Of a DNA stretch of 64,000 nt, positions 24,510 to 34,487 are shown one piece after another; position 1 is the first letter of the stretch, and each line of letters starts with the position of its first letter. The stretch comes from Zoogloea sp. GTDB lineage: Bacteria; Pseudomonadota; Gammaproteobacteria; Burkholderiales; Rhodocyclaceae. A program made the position numbers and the translations under genes. The stretch lies in contig NZ_JAQVCN010000019.1 in NCBI RefSeq assembly GCF_028689785.1, positions 1 through 64,000 on the forward strand, written 5' to 3'. The notes beneath the pieces are model-generated. The model saw nothing but the letters and a program-made list of their open reading frames with translations. It did not search any database and was not told the DNA's origin.

Positions 24510-24535
24510 AAGGTCGAATGAATTTGACCCCACGG
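24510..24535. repeat. Solo copy of the GGTCGAAT palindrome with outer flank
   Basis: AGGTCGAATGAATTTGACCC then CACGG. This is the right terminal hairpin of the 90-bp element with its CCCAC flank and no partner hairpin on its left. Confidence 0.65.
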
Positions 24536-24573
24536 GGTGCCGCAGTGCGTGCTGCAGGCTGAGAGGCCGCGCT

Positions 24574-24664
24574 TGTGTGGGGGCGCATTCATTCGACCAC
24601 GGACTTCCGGTCACCGGCCTGCCTGTGATGCAGCGCGGGGAGGTCGAGTGAATTCGACCCCAAG
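24574..24664 (+). repeat. Composite palindromic element, copy C (about 90 bp)
   Basis: The left hairpin CATTCATTCGACC preceded by GTGTGGGG, and the right hairpin GGTCGAGTGAATTCGACCCC, enclose a core starting CGGACTTCCGGTCACCGGCC. The core's first part matches the GGACTTGTGATCACCGGCAT core of copies A and B. The second part differs (TGTGATGCAGCGCGGGGA). It lies upstream of the meta-cleavage operon. Confidence 0.75.
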
Positions 24665-24802: not shown

Positions 24803-26263
24803 ATGCGTCTCATCGAGAATTTCATCGGCGGGGAATACACCGCCGGCCACAGCGGCAGGACTTTCGAAAAGCGTTCTCCGGTGGATAACCGGGTCATCGC
24901 CCGCATCACCGAGGCAGGGCGGGGCGAGGTGGACGCAGCGGTGTGTGCCGCCCGAGCGGCCCTCAATGGCGAGTGGGGTGGCCTGACTCTGGAGCAGCGG
25001 GTCGACCTGCTCTACGGCGTGGCCGACGAGATCACCCGCCGCTTCGAGGACTTCGTGGCCGCGGAAATGGCCGATACCGGCCAGCCCTCCCATGTCATGC
25101 GCCATGTGTTCATTCCTCGCGGTGCGGCCAATTTCAAGGTCTTTGCCGACGTGGTCAAGAACGTGCCGGCCGAGTCCTTTCAGATGTCCACGCCCGACGG
25201 TCGGGGTGCCCTCAACTACGCCATCCGGGTGCCCAAGGGGGTGATCGGGGTGATCAGCCCGTGGAATGCCCCTTTCCTGCTGATGACCTGGAAGGTGGGC
25301 CCGGCTCTGGCCTGTGGCAACACGGTGGTGGTGAAGCCTTCTGAGGAGTCGCCCCACACCGCCGCGCTGCTCGGCGAGGTGATGAACACGGTGGGTGTTC
25401 CCAAGGGTGTTTACAACGTAGTGCAGGGCTTCGGGCCGGACTCGGCCGGCGAGTTCCTGACCCGTCACCCTGGCGTGGATGCCATCACCTTCACCGGCGA
25501 GACCCGCACTGGCGCGGCCATCATGAAGGCCGCCTCCGACGGCATGCGCGACGTGTCCTTCGAGCTGGGGGGCAAGAACGCCGGCATCGTGTTTGCAGAC
25601 GCCGACTTTGACGCGGCGGTGGACGGCATCTTCCGCTCTGCATTTCTGAATACCGGGCAGGTGTGCCTGGGCACGGAGCGGGTATATGTGGAGCGGCCGA
25701 TCTTCGAACGTTTCGTGCAGGCCCTCAAGATGAAGGTCGAGGCGGTGAAGTTTGGCCGGCCCGAGGACCACGCCGCCAACTACGGCCCCCTGATCAGCCA
25801 GGAGCACCGCCAGAAGGTGCTTTCCTACTACCGCAAGGCGGTGGAGGAGGGCGCCACGGTGGTGACCGGCGGCGGCGTGCCCGACATGCCGGCCGAGCTG
25901 GCCGAGGGCGCCTGGGTGCAGCCCACCATCTGGACCGGCCTGCCCGAAACCGCCGCCGTGGTGCAGGAGGAGATCTTCGGCCCGTGCTGCCACATCCGCC
26001 CCTTCGACAGCGAGAACGAGGTGGTGGCCCTGGCCAACGACACCGACTACGGGCTCTCCACCACCATCTGGACCACCAACCTGGCCCGCGCCCACCGCAT
26101 GGCAGCACGTATCGAGGTGGGCATCACCTGGATCAACAGCTGGTTCCTGCGCGACCTGCGCACGGCCTTTGGCGGGTCGAAGCAGTCGGGCATCGGCCGC
26201 GAGGGTGGGGTGCATTCCCTGGAGTTCTACACCGAGACCCGAAACATCTGCGTGAAGCTGTGA
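24803..26263 (+). CDS. 2-hydroxymuconic semialdehyde dehydrogenase
   Basis: A 486-aa NAD-dependent aldehyde dehydrogenase of the DmpC/XylG group, oxidising the ring-cleavage product to 2-hydroxymuconate (the oxalocrotonate branch). Motifs are GVIGVISPWNAPFLLMTWK, the glycine-rich ITFTGETRTGAAIM, the glutamate loop SFELGGKNAGIVF and the catalytic cysteine in NTGQVCLGTERVYVE. The C-terminal WFLRDLRTAFGGSKQSGIGR is typical of the subgroup. It is the first gene of the operon. 2-aminomuconate semialdehyde dehydrogenase (AmnC) is a close relative that cannot be excluded. The neighbouring catechol dioxygenase favours the hydroxy form. Confidence 0.88.
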   Translation: MRLIENFIGGEYTAGHSGRTFEKRSPVDNRVIARITEAGRGEVDAAVCAARAALNGEWGGLTLEQRVDLLYGVADEITRRFEDFVAAEMADTGQPSHVMRHVFIPRGAANFKVFADVVKNVPAESFQMSTPDGRGALNYAIRVPKGVIGVISPWNAPFLLMTWKVGPALACGNTVVVKPSEESPHTAALLGEVMNTVGVPKGVYNVVQGFGPDSAGEFLTRHPGVDAITFTGETRTGAAIMKAASDGMRDVSFELGGKNAGIVFADADFDAAVDGIFRSAFLNTGQVCLGTERVYVERPIFERFVQALKMKVEAVKFGRPEDHAANYGPLISQEHRQKVLSYYRKAVEEGATVVTGGGVPDMPAELAEGAWVQPTIWTGLPETAAVVQEEIFGPCCHIRPFDSENEVVALANDTDYGLSTTIWTTNLARAHRMAARIEVGITWINSWFLRDLRTAFGGSKQSGIGREGGVHSLEFYTETRNICVKL

Positions 26264-26346: not shown

Positions 26347-27993
26347 ATGAACGAAGAGAAGATCCACCAATACGGCGACGAGCTCTACGAGGCTTTCCTC
26401 AGCCGCCGTCCGATCCGCCCCCTGCTGGAGCGTGAGCCGGAGATCACCATCGCCGACGCCTATCGCATCCAGGAGCGCTTCGTGGCCCGCCGCGTGGCGG
26501 CTGGCGAGAAAGTGATCGGCAAGAAGATCGGCGCCACCAGCAAGCCGGTGCAGGACTTTCTGGGCGTGTATCAGCCCGATTTCGGCATCCTGCTGTCGGG
26601 CATGGTGTACAGCGAAGGCGACACCATCGACCTGGGCCAGCTGATCCAGCCCAAGGCCGAGGCCGAGTTGGCCTTCGTGCTCAAGGAAGACCTCAAGGGC
26701 CCGGGCATCACCGCCATGGACGTGATCCGCGCCACCGACTACGTGCTGCCCTGCTTCGAGATCGTCGATTCGCGCATCACCGACTGGAAGATCAAGATCC
26801 AGGACACCGTTGCGGACAATGCCTCGTGCGGCGTGTATGTGCTGGGCAAAACCAAGGGCGACCCGCGCAAGCTGGACATCACCCTGGCCGGCATGGTGCT
26901 GGAGAAGAACGGTGAGCTCTTCTCCACCGGCGTCGGCGCTGCCGTGCAGGGCTCGCCCGCCAACGCGGTGGCCTGGCTGGCCAACACCCTGGGCGAGCTG
27001 GGCATCCCCTTCAAGGCCGGCGAGGTGATCCTGTCCGGTTCCCAGTCGGCCCTGGTGCCCGTGGTGGATGGGGACGAGCTGGTGTGTACGGTGGGCGGCC
27101 TGGGGAGTTGTCGGGTGAGGTTTGCGGGGCAGAGCGCCACCCCTGGCGCGGCCGCTCCTGCCAGCGAGGCCCGCCCCGGCAGCAGCACCGCCGGCATGAA
27201 CCTGACCCTGGGCCGCGAGGACATCGTGCGCCTGTGCGAGCGCATCGAAGGTGCTCAGACCCGCGCACGTGCCATCCCCAAGCTGACCGACGAATATCCG
27301 GGCATGACCATCGGTGACGGCTACGCTGTGCAGATGGCCCTGCGTCAGCGCTTCCTGGCGGCAGGCCACACCCAGGTGGGCTGGAAGGCCGGCCTGACCT
27401 CGAAGGCCAAGATGGTCCAGATGGGCGTCAACGTGCCCTCCATCGGCTTTCTCACCGACCGCATGGCCCGCCCGGAGAACTCGGCCATTTCCACGGCCGA
27501 CCTGGTGCACCCCCGCGTCGAGTGCGAGGTGGCCTTCGTGATGAAGAAGGCCCTGCAAGGCCCTGGCTGCACCCGCCAGGACGTGCTGGATGCCACCGAC
27601 TACGTGCTGCCGGCGGTGGAGATCATCGATTCGCGCTTCTCCGGCTTCAAGTTCGACCTGCCCAGCGTGGTGGCCGACAACGGCTCGTCGGCCCGCTTTG
27701 TGGGCGGCGGCCGGGCGCGCTACGTGACCGACATCAACCTGGAAACCCTGGGCGTGGTGATGGAGAAGAACGGCGAGCTGGTGGCCATGGCCGCCTCTGC
27801 CGCCGTGCTCGGCCACCCGGCCGACGCTATCGCCATGCTGGTGAACATCCTGGCCGAGCTGGGTGAAGGGCTGCCCGCCGGCAGCTTCGTGATGAGCGGC
27901 GGGATCACCGAAGCCATCGCGGTCAAGCCCGGCGACAACGTGATTGCCCGCTTCCAGGAGCTGGGCAGCGTGTCCATGCGCTTCGTCGAGTAG
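26347..27993 (+). CDS. Fused 2-oxopent-4-enoate hydratase / 4-oxalocrotonate decarboxylase
   Basis: One 548-aa chain joins two enzymes normally made as separate subunits, DmpE/XylJ and DmpH/XylI. Residues 1-258 match the hydratase ([52 protein letters not shown]). Residues 284-548 match the decarboxylase ([40 protein letters not shown]). Metal-site glutamates are visible in both halves ([14 protein letters not shown]). Between them is a 25-residue Ala/Pro/Ser linker. The ATG at 27196 that begins the second half has no ribosome site, so internal initiation is unlikely. The start at 26347 is preferred to an ATG 6 bp upstream because GGAAGG is better spaced. Confidence 0.9.
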
Positions 27994-28050: not shown

Positions 28051-28266
28051 ATGCCAATTATCGAGATGCACATGATGGTGGGTCGCACCACCGAACAGAA
28101 GAACAGGGTTGCCGTTGCGGTAACCGAGGCCGTGGCGAAGAGCCTCGACTGCAGCGCCGACACGGTGCGCATCCTGATTACCGAACACGCCAGCGACGGT
28201 TTCTACGTGGCCGGCCAGACCATGGCCCAGCGCGCCGCCGCCCGGGCCCAGGAGAAAAGCGCATGA
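28051..28266 (+). CDS. dmpI: 4-oxalocrotonate tautomerase
   Basis: A 71-aa tautomerase that ketonises 2-hydroxymuconate to 2-oxo-3-hexenedioate. The mature N-terminus would be Pro-1 ([20 protein letters not shown]), the catalytic base of the family. A conserved arginine follows in the [17 protein letters not shown] region. It is slightly longer than the classical 62-residue enzyme, through an Ala/Arg-rich tail. The ATG at 28051 follows GGAGAGAGAGCCC. It overlaps the acetaldehyde dehydrogenase gene by 4 bp (ATGA), so translation is coupled. Confidence 0.9.
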
Positions 28267-29171
28267 AGAAGATCCGCTGCGCCCTGATCGGCTCGGGCAA
28301 CATCGGCACCGACCTGATCTACAAGATCCAGCGCAGCCCGGTGCTGGAGCCCGTGTGGATGGTGGGCATTGACCCCAGCTCCGAAGGGCTGGCCCGCGCC
28401 CGCGAGATGGGCCTCAAGACCACCGCCGAGGGTGTGGATGGGCTGCTGCCCCATGTGCTGGAGGACAATATCCAGATCGCCTTCGACGCCACCAGCGCCT
28501 ATGTGCATGCGGAGAACAGCCGCAAGCTCAACGCCCTGGGGGTGATGATGATCGACCTGACGCCCGCCGCCATCGGCCCCCTGTGCGTGCCGCCGGTCAA
28601 TCTGCGCCAGCACGCCGAGAAAGTGGAGATGAACGTCAACATGATCTCCTGTGCCGGCCAGGCGACGATCCCCATCGTCAATGCCGTGTCGCGCATCCAG
28701 GGCGTGGGCTATGCCGAGATCGTGGCCAGCCTGTCGTCGAAGTCGGTGGGCCCCGGCACCCGGGCCAACCTGGACGAGTTCACCTACACCACCTCCAGCG
28801 CCATCGAGCAGGTGGGCGGGGCGCGCAAGGGCAAGGCCCTGGCCATCATCAACCCGGCCGAGCCGCCGATGATCATGCGCAACACCATCTCCTGCCTCAC
28901 CGATGATGAGCCCGACCACGGCAGGATCACCGAATCCATCCTGCAGATGATCGGTGAAGTGCAGAAGTACGTACCGGGCTACCGCCTGGTGAATGGCCCG
29001 ATCTACGACGGCAACAAGGTGCAGGTGTTCATGGAGGTGGCCGGGCTGGGGGATTACCTGCCGCGCTACGCCGGCAACCTGGACATCATGACCGCCGCAG
29101 CCACCTGCACCGCCGAGATGTTCGCCGAGGAGATCCTCAAGGGCAGCATCAGGCTGGAGCCTGTCGTGTAG
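28263..29171 (+). CDS. dmpF: Acetaldehyde dehydrogenase (acylating)
   Basis: Converts acetaldehyde, NAD+ and CoA to acetyl-CoA, taking acetaldehyde directly from the aldolase through a channel. The 302-aa length is normal. Visible features are the Rossmann motif [20 protein letters not shown], the catalytic cysteine in [20 protein letters not shown], and the C-terminal [20 protein letters not shown] with [17 protein letters not shown]. It is immediately coupled to the tautomerase, with dmpG 149 bp downstream behind a REP pair. Confidence 0.95.
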
Positions 29172-29276: not shown

Positions 29277-29319
29277 CGGGTACGGCCGCATCGCCACACC
29301 CTTTACATTGGAGAGACCC

Positions 29320-30363
29320 ATGGATCTCAAAGGCAGGAAAATCACTCTGCACGACATGTGCCTGCGTGACGGTATGCACGCCAAGCGCGAGCAGATCAGC
29401 GTCGATCAGATGGTCAAGGTCGCCACCGCCCTGGATGCGGCCGGTGTGCCCTATATCCAGGTAACCCACGGTGCGGGCCTGGGCGGCAACTCGCTGCAGC
29501 ACGGCTTCGCCCCCCATAGCAACGAGGAATACATTTCCGCCGTGGCCAGCAAGATGACCCAGGCCAAGGTGTCGGTGCTGCTGATCCCCGGCCTGGGCAC
29601 CATGAAGGAGCTGCAGTCTGCCTACGATTGCGGTGCCCGCAGCGTGCACGTGGCTACCCACTGCACGGAGGCCGACACCGCACCCCAGCACATCGCCTTT
29701 GCCCGCAAGCTGGGCATGGACACCACTGGTTTCCTGATGATGGCCCACCTCAACGACCCCGATGGCATCGCCCGGCAGGGCAAGCTGATGGAGAGCTATG
29801 GTGCCCATACGGTGTATGTCACCGACAGCGCCGGCTACATGCTGCCGGACGACGTGAAGGCCCGTATCGGCGCTCTGCGCGCCGTGCTCAAGCCGGAAAC
29901 CGAGATCGGCTTCCATGGTCACCACAACCTGGGCATGGGCATCGCCAACTCCATCGCCGCTATCGAGGCCGGCGCCACCCGCATCGACGGCTCTGCCGCC
30001 GGGCTGGGCGCCGGCGCCGGCAACACGCCGCTGGAGGTCTTTGCCGCCGTGTGCGAGCGCATGGGCATCGAGACCGGTGTGGATCTCTTCAAGCTCATGG
30101 ACGTGGCGGAAGAAATCATCGTGCCGATGATGGAGCACGTGGTGCGCGTCGATCGGGAATCCCTGACTCTAGGTTTTGCCGGCGTGTATTCCACCTTCCT
30201 GCTCCACTCAAAGCGTGCCGCCGACCGCTTCGGCGTACCCGCCCGGGACATTCTGGTAGAGCTGGGACGCAAGAAGATGATCGGCGGTCAGGAAGACATG
30301 ATCATGGACACCGCCATGACCATGGCCAGGGAACGTGGCCTGCTCAAGGCCGTGGCAGCCTGA
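29320..30363 (+). CDS. dmpG: 4-hydroxy-2-oxovalerate aldolase
   Basis: Cleaves 4-hydroxy-2-oxovalerate to pyruvate and acetaldehyde. A 347-aa class II (Mn2+) aldolase. Motifs are the N-terminal [20 protein letters not shown], the metal-binding [40 protein letters not shown] and a C-terminal DmpG communication domain ([18 protein letters not shown]). The ATG at 29320 follows a GGAGAG ribosome site. It pairs physically with DmpF. Confidence 0.95.
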
Positions 30364-30430
30364 ACACACGGACGGGGTGCCCACGCAGGCGCCCCGCAGT
30401 AGCACCCCCCATCCACCAATGGAGACAAAG

Positions 30431-31366
30431 ATGGCACTCAGAGGATTGCTTCGCATGGGCGAAGTGGCGATACGCGTACTCGACATGGGCGAAGCCCGCG
30501 AGCACTACGGCAAGCGCATGGGCCTGCACGAGGTCATGACCGACGCCGCCGGACAGGTGTATTTCAAGGCCTGGGACGAGCACGACCACCACTGCCTGGT
30601 GCTGCGCGAGGCCGAGTCGTCGGGCATGGACTACTTTGCCTTCAAGGTCTTCGATGACGCTGCCCTGGTTGAACTGGAGCCCAGGATCCGCGCCTTCGGC
30701 CTGCAGGTGGAGCACATCGAGGCCGGGGTGTACCCGAAGAGTGGGCGGCGCCTGCAATTCACCCTGCCCAGCGGCCATGTGATGCAGCTGTACGCCCACA
30801 AGGAGCAGACCGGCAACAGCCTGCCCTTGCTCAACCCGGGGGTGTTGCCCGACGAAGGGGTGATCCGTGGCTTCCGCATCAACCGCCTCGATCACGCCCT
30901 GGTGGGCGGTGTGAACATCGACGAATCGGCGCGGCTGTTCACCGAGGTGTTCGGTTTTGATCTGAGCGAGCGCCTCATCGACGCCGAGAGTGGCCAGTCC
31001 CTGGCCCTGTTCCTGAGCTGCTCCACCAAGCCCCACGACATCGCTTTCGTGCTGCAGCCCACACCGGGGCGCTTCCACCACGTGTCCTTCCTGCTGGAGT
31101 CGGTGAACGACGTGATCCACGCCGCCGACCTCATCGGCAAGTACCGCATCCCGGTGGACGTGGGCCCCAACCGCCATGGTGTCACCCGCGGCGCGACCAT
31201 CTATTTCTTCGATCCGTCGGGCAACCGCAACGAGGTCTTCTCCGGCGGCTACGTGCATTACCCGGACACCCCGACCCTCACCTGGGACACCACCGAGCTG
31301 GGGCATGCCACATTCGCCCAGGACAATGTGGTGCGCGAGAGCTTCCTGACCGTGCTGACGGGCTGA
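30431..31366 (+). CDS. dmpB: Catechol 2,3-dioxygenase
   Basis: Extradiol ring cleavage of catechol to 2-hydroxymuconic semialdehyde. The 311-aa two-domain vicinal oxygen chelate protein is close to the classical 307-aa XylE/DmpB. The Fe(II) ligands are H155 (NRLDHALVGG), H217 (GRFHHVSFLLES) and E268 (NRNEVFSGGY). Their spacing equals that of XylE. The ATG at 30431 follows GGAGACAAAG. The gene is 67 bp after dmpG and 4 bp before the SDR gene. It is placed after the lower-pathway genes, unlike dmp/xyl operons. Confidence 0.93.
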   Translation: MALRGLLRMGEVAIRVLDMGEAREHYGKRMGLHEVMTDAAGQVYFKAWDEHDHHCLVLREAESSGMDYFAFKVFDDAALVELEPRIRAFGLQVEHIEAGVYPKSGRRLQFTLPSGHVMQLYAHKEQTGNSLPLLNPGVLPDEGVIRGFRINRLDHALVGGVNIDESARLFTEVFGFDLSERLIDAESGQSLALFLSCSTKPHDIAFVLQPTPGRFHHVSFLLESVNDVIHAADLIGKYRIPVDVGPNRHGVTRGATIYFFDPSGNRNEVFSGGYVHYPDTPTLTWDTTELGHATFAQDNVVRESFLTVLTG

Positions 31367-32272: not shown

Positions 32273-32701
32273 GTGCCCATTGTGAACTTTCATCTGGTCG
32301 AAGGCATGAGCACCCCTGAGCAGGACGAACGCCTGCTGGTAGGTGCCTGCCAGCTCTACGCCGAAGTGCTGAAGGCACCCATGGAACGCATCCGCGCCTT
32401 CATCACACCCCATCGCCCCGGGCAGTTTGCCGTGGCCGGCGGCCTGTGCGCCCACCACGGGCTGCACGCACCGTATTTCGAGTTCATCGTGCTCGAAGGA
32501 CGATCCCTGGAAGATCGGCATCGCCTGATGCGCCGTTTCACCGACCTGCTGGTGGACACCCTGGACGTACGCCGCGACCTGATCCGTGGCAGCTGTCGCC
32601 GCGTCGAACCCCAGGACTGGGCCATCGCCGGAGAACCCGCCAGCGTCATCCGCAAAGACGAAGTCGCCGCCCGTGCCGCCCAGGACAGCCCACCCGCGTA
32701 A
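32273..32701 (+). CDS. Long tautomerase-superfamily protein (cis-CaaD-like architecture)
   Basis: A 142-aa protein with a GTG start (SD AGGAG 7 nt before) that gives Pro-1 after methionine removal (PIVNFHLVEG). It is twice the length of a 4-OT subunit and appears to contain two beta-alpha-beta units. The second begins near YFEFIVLEGRSLEDRHRLMR, whose EGRS motif resembles the active-site arginine region of cis-3-chloroacrylic acid dehalogenase. The first cis-CaaD arginine is not conserved and His-28 is replaced by Tyr. The function is uncertain, possibly tautomerisation of a related dienol. Confidence 0.65.
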   Translation: MPIVNFHLVEGMSTPEQDERLLVGACQLYAEVLKAPMERIRAFITPHRPGQFAVAGGLCAHHGLHAPYFEFIVLEGRSLEDRHRLMRRFTDLLVDTLDVRRDLIRGSCRRVEPQDWAIAGEPASVIRKDEVAARAAQDSPPA

Positions 32702-32890: not shown

Positions 32891-32947
32891 GGCGATGGGC
32901 GCTGAATTCGATCCAACGGCTTTCGCTGGATGCTGAAGGAAAAACGC

Positions 32948-33658
32948 ATGAATGTATTGATCGTCTTTGCCCACCACGAACCCCGCTCCTTCAACGCCGC
33001 CATGAAGGACGAGGCGGTGCGCCTGCTGCAGGGGGAGGGCCACGCGGTGCAGGTGTCCGACCTCTACGCCATGCACTTCAACCCGGTGGCCAGCGCTGCC
33101 GACTTTGGCGAGCGGGCCAACCCGGACTACCTCGTCTATGCACTGGAGCAGCGCAACGCCTTCAACAAGGGCCGCCTGGCGCCGGATATCGCGGCCGAGA
33201 TCGACAAGCTCAAGTGGGCCGACCTGATCATCTTCAACTTCCCGATCTACTGGTACGGCATGCCGGCAATCATGAAGGGCTGGGTGGACCGGGTCTTCGT
33301 TTCCGGCTTCTGCTACGGCGGCCGGCGCATTTACGACAAGGGCGGGCTGAAGGGCAAGTCGGCCATGCTGGCCATCTCCCTGGGTGGCCAGGCCCACATG
33401 TTCGGGCCGGATGCCATCCACGGCGAGCTGGAGGTGATGCTCCAGCCCATCCTGCGCGGCATGCTCGGCTACGTCGGCCTGACGGTGCTGCCGCCTTATG
33501 TGGCCTGGCATGTACCCTACGTCAGCCCCGAGGCCCGTGCAGAGATTCTCCAGGGCTACCGCCGGCACCTGCTGACCCTGGATGAGCGCGCGCCGCTACG
33601 CTTCCCGTCGGTTGACGATTTCGATCAGGACCTGCGCCCCCGGCCTGCGGTAGATTGA
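32948..33658 (+). CDS. NAD(P)H:quinone oxidoreductase (flavodoxin-fold, NQO family)
   Basis: A 236-aa cytoplasmic FAD/FMN enzyme of the NQO1/MdaB/KefF family. It begins MNVLIVFAHHEPRSFNAAMK, then IIFNFPIYWYGMPAIMKGWV, FVSGFCYGGRRIYDKGGLKG and MLAISLGGQAHMFGPDAIHG, all family hallmarks. Two-electron quinone reduction would remove catechol-derived quinones. The ATG at 32948 follows GAAGGAAAAACGC. It lies 246 bp after the tautomerase, beyond a terminator, and 28 bp before the aldolase. Confidence 0.85.
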   Translation: MNVLIVFAHHEPRSFNAAMKDEAVRLLQGEGHAVQVSDLYAMHFNPVASAADFGERANPDYLVYALEQRNAFNKGRLAPDIAAEIDKLKWADLIIFNFPIYWYGMPAIMKGWVDRVFVSGFCYGGRRIYDKGGLKGKSAMLAISLGGQAHMFGPDAIHGELEVMLQPILRGMLGYVGLTVLPPYVAWHVPYVSPEARAEILQGYRRHLLTLDERAPLRFPSVDDFDQDLRPRPAVD

Positions 33659-33686
33659 GGCTTCAGACGATACGGAGGGACACACG

Positions 33687-34487
33687 ATGGAATTTTCCGA
33701 GAACCGCTTCAAGCAGCGCCTGCTGGCGGGGGATCTGCAATACGGCCTGTGGCTGGGCCTGTCCGAGATCTTCAGTGCCGAGATCTGTGCTGGCGCCGGC
33801 TTTGACTGGCTGTTGATCGATGCCGAGCATGGCCCCAACGATCTGCGCACCATCTTTGCCCAACTCCAGGCCATCGCGCCCTACACGTCCCAGCCGGTGG
33901 TGCGTCCCCCCCAGGGCGACCATGTGCTCATCAAGCAATTGCTGGAGACCGGCGTGCAGACCCTGCTGATTCCCATGGTGGAGTCAGCCGAGCAGGCCGC
34001 CCATCTGGTGGAGGCCATGCGTTACCCGCCGGCCGGTATCCGAGGGGTGGGCAGCTCGATTGCCCGGGCCTCCCGCTGGGGCCGCATTGGCGACTATGCC
34101 CAGCGGGCCAATGACGCCATGTGCCTGCTCGTGCAGGTGGAAACCCGCGCCGGTATGGCCGAGCTGGACGCGATCCTGGCGGTGGACGGGGTGGATGGGG
34201 TGTTCTTTGGCGCAGCCGATCTGGCCGCCTCCTGCGGCCTGCTCGGGGAGTCGAATCACCCGCAGATCGTGGCCATGATAGAACAGGGCCTGAGCCGGGT
34301 GGCTGCGTGCGGCAAGGCTGGCGGGGTGTTGTGTGGCGACCGGGAGTTGGTGGGGCGCTACCGGGAGGCCGGTGCGCGCTTCATCGCCGTGGGGGTGGAT
34401 TCGATGTTGCTGGCGGCGGCGACATCCAGCCTGTGTGCGTCATACAAAGGCGGGGCGTCTTGCGACGCCCCGGGGTCTTCGTACTGA
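33687..34487 (+). CDS. HpcH/HpaI family aldolase
   Basis: A 266-aa class II aldolase of the HpcH/HpaI family, which cleaves 4-hydroxy-2-oxo acids such as 4-hydroxy-2-oxoheptanedioate to pyruvate plus an aldehyde. Motifs are [56 protein letters not shown], the QVET metal site with its Glu ([14 protein letters not shown]), and [15 protein letters not shown]. Its neighbour is a quinone reductase. It could serve a second lower pathway, for example homoprotocatechuate, but no hpa genes are present. Confidence 0.85.

Follow-up and report, generated by a model that had tools for sequence, protein, structure and literature searches.

A fused dmpE-dmpH gene in a catechol meta-cleavage operon

The window (the whole stretch of 64,000 nucleotides of Zoogloea sp. 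DNA that was analysed) carries a lower catechol meta-cleavage operon. It comprises dmpC, dmpE-dmpH, a tautomerase gene, dmpF, dmpG and dmpB, followed by genes for an SDR protein, a two-domain tautomerase, an FMN reductase-like protein and an HpaI-like aldolase. The dmpE-dmpH gene at 26347-27993 of the forward strand is a single open frame of 548 codons with no internal stop. The main features are listed below, with the scores or comparisons that define them.

24803..26263, + strand: dmpC, 2-hydroxymuconic semialdehyde dehydrogenase, upstream operon gene (TIGR03216, 895.3 bits against a cut-off of 693.25; syntenic in relatives)
26347..27993, + strand: fused dmpE-dmpH gene, 548 codons plus stop (two family models over their cut-offs)
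26347..27126, + strand: N-terminal DmpE-type 2-oxopent-4-enoate hydratase domain, residues 1-260 (TIGR03220; PDB 8ih6_A)
27127..27195, + strand: linker, residues 261-283 (23 residues), rich in Gly/Ala/Ser/Pro/Thr (junction alignment with separate-gene relatives; pLDDT below 50 at residues 263-282)
27196..27990, + strand: C-terminal DmpH-type 4-oxalocrotonate (2-oxo-3-hexenedioate) decarboxylase domain, residues 284-548 (TIGR03218; NahK 5d2i_A)
28051..28266, + strand: 4-oxalocrotonate tautomerase-type gene, 71 codons (TIGR00013, 54.5 bits over the first 69 residues, just under the cut-off of 56.9; syntenic)
28263..29171, + strand: dmpF, acetaldehyde dehydrogenase (acetylating) (TIGR03215, 457.9 bits against 282.25)
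29320..30363, + strand: dmpG, 4-hydroxy-2-oxovalerate aldolase (TIGR03217, 552.5 bits against 286; the start codon is a choice within the frame 29308-30363)
30422..31366, + strand: dmpB, catechol 2,3-dioxygenase (TIGR03211, 363.3 bits against 320.2; the start codon is a choice within the frame 30335-31366)

Judged by curated NCBIfam scores, the predicted product belongs to both the DmpE and the DmpH families, in agreement with the earlier note, which had read the uninterrupted 548-codon frame as two such halves. The N-terminal half (residues 1-278 scored, match at 5-259) reaches 454.8 bits with TIGR03220 (DmpE) against a cut-off of 408.8, and the C-terminal half (residues 279-548 scored, match at 284-546) reaches 423.8 bits with TIGR03218 (DmpH) against 350.55. 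When each half is scored with the model of the other, the values (224.9 and 216 bits) are far below its own. The hydratase domain matches PDB 8ih6_A with an E-value of 2e-66 and the decarboxylase domain matches NahK 5d2i_A with an E-value of 1.1e-88. Pfam FAH_hydrolase covers two stretches within the chain, and the two halves are homologous to each other. Residues K60, E105, E107, E138, D141, S142 and R143 of the hydratase half are invariant across 32 aligned rows, in an alignment that put dmpH-only rows onto this half and is distinct from the one used for structure prediction. Their counterparts in the decarboxylase half (K347, E392, E394, E425, D428, S429 and R430) are all present, the first four of them also aligning with NahK. 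We take the conserved Glu residues of both halves to be metal holders in this family, and K60, E105, E107 and E138 of the hydratase half are presumably metal-binding or catalytic positions. The metal-site residues previously claimed for both halves are intact as conserved positions, with a putative role in metal binding.

The order dmpC-dmpE-dmpH-4OT-dmpF-dmpG is kept in 17 of 19 compared loci, fused and unfused (the 19 were chosen from 155, and two of them, L058 and L120, are the same Zoogloea oleivorans contig). Within the stretch examined, one of the two exceptions (L042) is without a tautomerase match and the other (L048) without a dmpF or dmpG match. In the window, the stop of the tautomerase gene overlaps the dmpF start at 28263. 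A second tautomerase-like gene of 142 codons lies near the operon end (32273-32701, + strand). Tautomerase-like sequence covers it twice (1-61 and about 72-127), making it a tandem 4-oxalocrotonate tautomerase fusion itself, with a match at the same place in many compared relatives. After the meta-cleavage genes, the region 32945-34487 (+ strand) contains the FMN reductase-like gene, which is KefF-like (92.8 bits, well under the cut-off of 210), and the HpaI-like aldolase gene (358.9 bits, just under 368.8). Upstream of dmpC, an inverted repeat at 24512-24598 consists of two 22-base arms, 86% complementary and 43 bases apart, and a third stretch resembling the arms is seen by eye near 24645. 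This could possibly be a repeat element or an operator. A promoter scan gave nothing beyond chance, and Rfam and ARAGORN found one tRNA only in the window, distant from the fused gene. Further dmpE-like (63% and 60%) and dmpH-like (55%) genes are located on other contigs of the same genome (C120, C97 and C74), and the fused protein thus need not be the sole enzyme for these steps.

Distribution and descent of the fusion

The same open fusion was found in three more Zoogloea genomes, namely MAG.494 (L038), Aved BAT3C.309 (L039) and UWPOB_ZOOG2 (L040), with 95-96% protein identity. The earlier note had proposed a search for other chains carrying both domains in this order; these three, all from Zoogloea, are what it yielded. 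The four fused genes have 548-550 codons with the frame open in each, and that of Aved BAT3C.309 sits in a contig of 2.0 Mb. In our genus sample (23 genomes, the window's included), 4 genomes have the fusion and 7 have a close pair as separate genes, with a hydratase half 83-92% identical. In one genome (G009) the sole match is a dmpH fragment (89%) at the start of a contig, from which the fused or unfused state is not readable, and another (G002) carries a pair at 62%, with stops present. Among the matches listed, none of 75% or more comes from the remaining ten genomes, several of which are incomplete drafts in which absence is weak evidence. Separately, genus genome G005 contains a second dmpE-like gene in two overlapping pieces (C7:615853-616634), which suggests a frameshift or a sequencing error in that copy.

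When loci were ranked by likeness to the fused query, the best 79 of 575 confirmed stretches comprised 3 fused genes, 73 separate adjacent genes (dmpE then dmpH) and 3 loci with no dmpH half within the stretch examined. In the family sample, a stop-free full-length match was present in 4 of 395 genomes among the matches listed, and 173 had any match. No fusion beyond the window's own was found in the order sample (399 genomes, of which 11 matched at E<=1e-100) or in the phylum sample (398 genomes, of which 19 matched at E<=1e-60). These family, order and phylum searches scored at most 3 candidates per genome and may therefore have overlooked a fusion that is distant or matches weakly. Several full-length single matches with an internal stop (L131-L137 and L156, as well as L161, L163, L164 and L165) were considered as candidate fusions, and all proved to be two frames. 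On plasmids, the fusion was absent from the best 40 of 538 matching records, each of which matched in two pieces, and none of the 14 records matched by megablast reached 80% coverage. No description of the fusion was found among titles and abstract starts of the best matches in the open-access PubMed Central literature. In the main text of a systematic fusion survey (PMC4921024), 'oxalocrotonate' and words beginning with 'hydratase' are absent. Among the genomes covered by these comparisons, only one Zoogloea clade has the fusion.

The nearest relative without the fusion is Z. oleivorans. It has the same operon gene order as the window, and its hydratase and decarboxylase are 94% and 87-88% identical to the window halves (two genomes). 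Unlike in the window, two separate genes encode them; these overlap at ATGA, and a ribosome site is present. PMC7012976 describes the phenol/catechol meta-cleavage operon of Z. oleivorans Buc as ORF 17-25 and lists the hydratase (ORF 18) separately from the decarboxylase (ORF 19); it credits ring breakdown during microaerobic toluene degradation to a different, partial meta-cleavage cluster.

In a tree built from five operon genes (dmpC, dmpE, dmpH, dmpF and dmpG; 25 rows, 23 of them distinct), the four fused rows form one side of a 100/100 branch, and the nearest rows to this group are the Z. oleivorans pair (83/92). In an rpoB tree of 15 genus genomes, the two fused genomes with an rpoB match are joined at 100/100; the other two are absent from it for lack of an rpoB match, and letter make-up was flagged for three rows, including that of the window. 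For the hydratase half, the dN/dS ratios of the six pairs of fused genes lie between 0.051 and 0.100; those for the decarboxylase half lie between 0.083 and 0.120. Both ranges show purifying selection acting on both halves with similar strength. The gene fusion is real but evolutionarily local.

The linker and the lost start site

In a junction alignment, the linker occupies the position of the stop/start junction of separate dmpE and dmpH genes. Many separate-gene relatives, Z. oleivorans included, have an AGGAG-type site here, with stop and start overlapping as ATGA. The fused genes show an altered AGGAG-type site, and the linker stands in place of the overlap. The halves are separated by 66 or 72 bases in the fused genes versus 20 in the commonest separate arrangement, and the 46 or 52 extra bases bring both halves into one frame. 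A linker of 25 residues rich in Ala/Pro/Ser had been proposed earlier; a linker rich in small residues is indeed there, but with 23 residues (261-283) and a Gly/Ala/Ser/Pro/Thr-rich composition. The linkers of the four fused genes have diverged in sequence, and their sole length difference, 6 bases, is in frame. Their dN/dS (0.09-0.80 over 23-25 codons) is too noisy for a firm value. A search of the window's own genome for the source of the linker DNA gave chance-level matches only, the best other match having an E-value of 0.02.

For the start of the fused gene (26347), the SD-like energy is -5.7. At the inner ATG (27196), anti-Shine-Dalgarno pairing is -2.0 kcal/mol in the window and -1.8 to -3.2 across the four fused genes. 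Among 73 dmpH genes that stand separately, the median for the best start in the vicinity of the domain is -8.0, with 4 of them weaker than -4. This choice of the best start favours strong values, and the same span in the fused genes holds the inner ATG only. On this comparison, the inner ATG of the fused genes is shown to be without a good ribosome site, the site having been lost relative to separate-gene relatives. The earlier statement that neither a stop nor a ribosome site precedes the inner ATG is thus borne out. In-frame GTG codons have better SD-like scores: codon 257, upstream of the inner ATG (-7.9 in the window, but between -3.2 and -3.4 in the remaining fused genes), codon 246 (-6.0, in the window and in MAG.494), and codon 294 or 296, inside the decarboxylase half (-5.9 in three of the four). 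Some internal initiation is therefore possible.

Predicted function, parallels and alternative explanations

The AlphaFold2 model of the fused chain (mean pLDDT 88.7, pTM 0.86) has two well-predicted domains, and residues 263-282 have a pLDDT below 50. It was built from an alignment of 27 rows, 15 of them made by joining two separate genes across a stop. From this model, the linker is predicted to be disordered. A Foldseek search with the model retrieved NahK (5d2f), HpcG, MhpD and chains of 8ih6, matched to single domains. PDB entry 8ih6, from Pseudomonas sp. AP-3, is titled as a decarboxylase-hydratase complex and has five chains per sequence; no open-access PubMed Central paper containing '8ih6' was found. 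4-Oxalocrotonate decarboxylase is reported to work in complex with vinylpyruvate hydratase (PMC5480330), and the hydratase and decarboxylase are said to form bifunctional complexes (PMC10470539). PMC5480330 also mentions an E106Q variant of the P. putida mt-2 hydratase that spares decarboxylation; the counterpart of E106 in the hydratase half of the fused chain would be E105 or E107. The claim of the earlier note that these partners form a complex therefore has precedent in 8ih6 and in PMC5480330.

The vinylpyruvate hydratase/4-oxalocrotonate decarboxylase complex (DmpE-DmpH, XylJ-XylI; 8ih6) resembles the fused chain in that the same families catalyze the same successive reactions. It differs in that two polypeptides assemble in the 8ih6-type complex, whereas here one chain has both domains: both components are encoded together at the window locus, yet as one frame and not as two polypeptides. 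By this analogy, the fused chain most likely works like the known complex.

The best parallel to the fused enzyme, in a related pathway, is HpcE/HpaG of the homoprotocatechuate pathway (PDB 1i7o and 1GTT), which likewise has two FAH-fold domains in a single chain and unites successive enzymes. The families and the reactions are different. According to PMC12718150, this enzyme is a single polypeptide in E. coli, the decarboxylase being assigned to its second domain, and two interacting proteins in A. baumannii, where the separate pair forms a 1:1 complex with decarboxylation 60- and 12-fold above either protein alone. Membership of the fused protein in the HpcE/HpaG family was rejected (NF011750, 15.6 bits versus a cut-off of 811). 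A similar packing of the domains was also rejected, since the predicted model compared with 1i7o_A gave TM scores of 0.31/0.39 and an rmsd of 22.0 Å over 520 columns.

Taking these sequence data together, we consider it highly likely that the gene encodes one bifunctional decarboxylase/hydratase polypeptide for two successive steps of catechol meta-cleavage, i.e. a covalent form of the known complex. The tautomerase-type gene product would supply the substrate of the decarboxylase half. The C-terminal DmpH half would decarboxylate 2-oxo-3-hexenedioate to 2-hydroxy-2,4-pentadienoate, the N-terminal DmpE half would hydrate the latter to 4-hydroxy-2-oxopentanoate, and DmpG would then split this product. 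The domain order is the gene order (hydratase first), which is the reverse of the reaction order. We infer that the protein is expressed as a single chain with both activities present, and that it could assemble into an 8ih6-type hydratase-decarboxylase particle with domain numbers made equal by covalent linkage. With both domains on one chain their numbers would be equal, and the 1:1 ratio of 8ih6 would thus be kept. The idea of the earlier note that a fusion would lock the channel at 1:1 goes beyond equal domain numbers, channelling being a matter of kinetics. In a closed particle, each decarboxylase domain may be held to a hydratase domain by the covalent link, and such constant pairing may raise direct handover of 2-hydroxypentadienoate, making the protein a natural covalent hydratase-decarboxylase complex. 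We put this idea forward tentatively and hold it to be rather unlikely. In a study cited by PMC4921024, gene fusion alone did not promote channelling.

That study is also in line with the fusion being a neutral accident: the partners already assemble, loss of the stop would have been costless, and the chain would be no better than the separate pair. This explanation is compatible with the bifunctional reading, and we find it plausible, although not quite an even bet. It would account for finding the fusion in just one clade of the genomes compared. It also fits HpaG1/HpaG2-type relatives, which according to PMC12718150 work as separate proteins in a complex and are read as descended from a bifunctional enzyme, which is the opposite direction. 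However, the fusion was kept in all four descendants through divergence to 95-96% protein identity, with a linker that is in frame and rich in small residues. Such retention shows that the fusion is tolerated and argues weakly that it is favoured.

Two polypeptides could still be made, either by internal initiation, for which GTG codon 257 of the window with its SD-like energy of -7.9 is an example, or by cleavage of an exposed linker, which the model gives low confidence as expected of disorder. We judge this improbable, given that in the other three genes the codon 257 site reaches just -3.2 to -3.4, and that the inner ATG is weak in all four. It is still less probable that one half is inactive and serves as a scaffold only, because the conserved positions are intact in both halves and purifying selection on them is similar. 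Finally, the window genome is a draft of 128 contigs, and an assembly or sequencing artefact might be suspected. The same open fusion in three other genomes with separate records, one of them in the 2.0 Mb contig, and with diverged linkers, makes this negligible; its recurrence rules out chance and a single mis-assembly. The earlier note had rejected an assembly error, rightly in our view. It had also named, as grounds for doubting the fusion, separate genes in close relatives together with a mis-joined junction: the genes are indeed separate in Z. oleivorans, but the junction is real and recurs in four genomes.

The bifunctional polypeptide is thus the reading that we retain, and the fusion is very probably functional, as far as can be judged from sequence. 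The comparison of the junctions shows a path from an ATGA-overlapping gene pair to one gene. That known partners are fused provides independent evolutionary evidence for the functional pairing of hydratase and decarboxylase. The partners were already known to pair, and the fusion is a natural experiment rather than a new kind of system: comparing the fused chain with a version of it divided at the linker, and with the very similar separate proteins of Z. oleivorans, would be a clean way to ask if covalent linkage changes how the intermediate passes between the domains.
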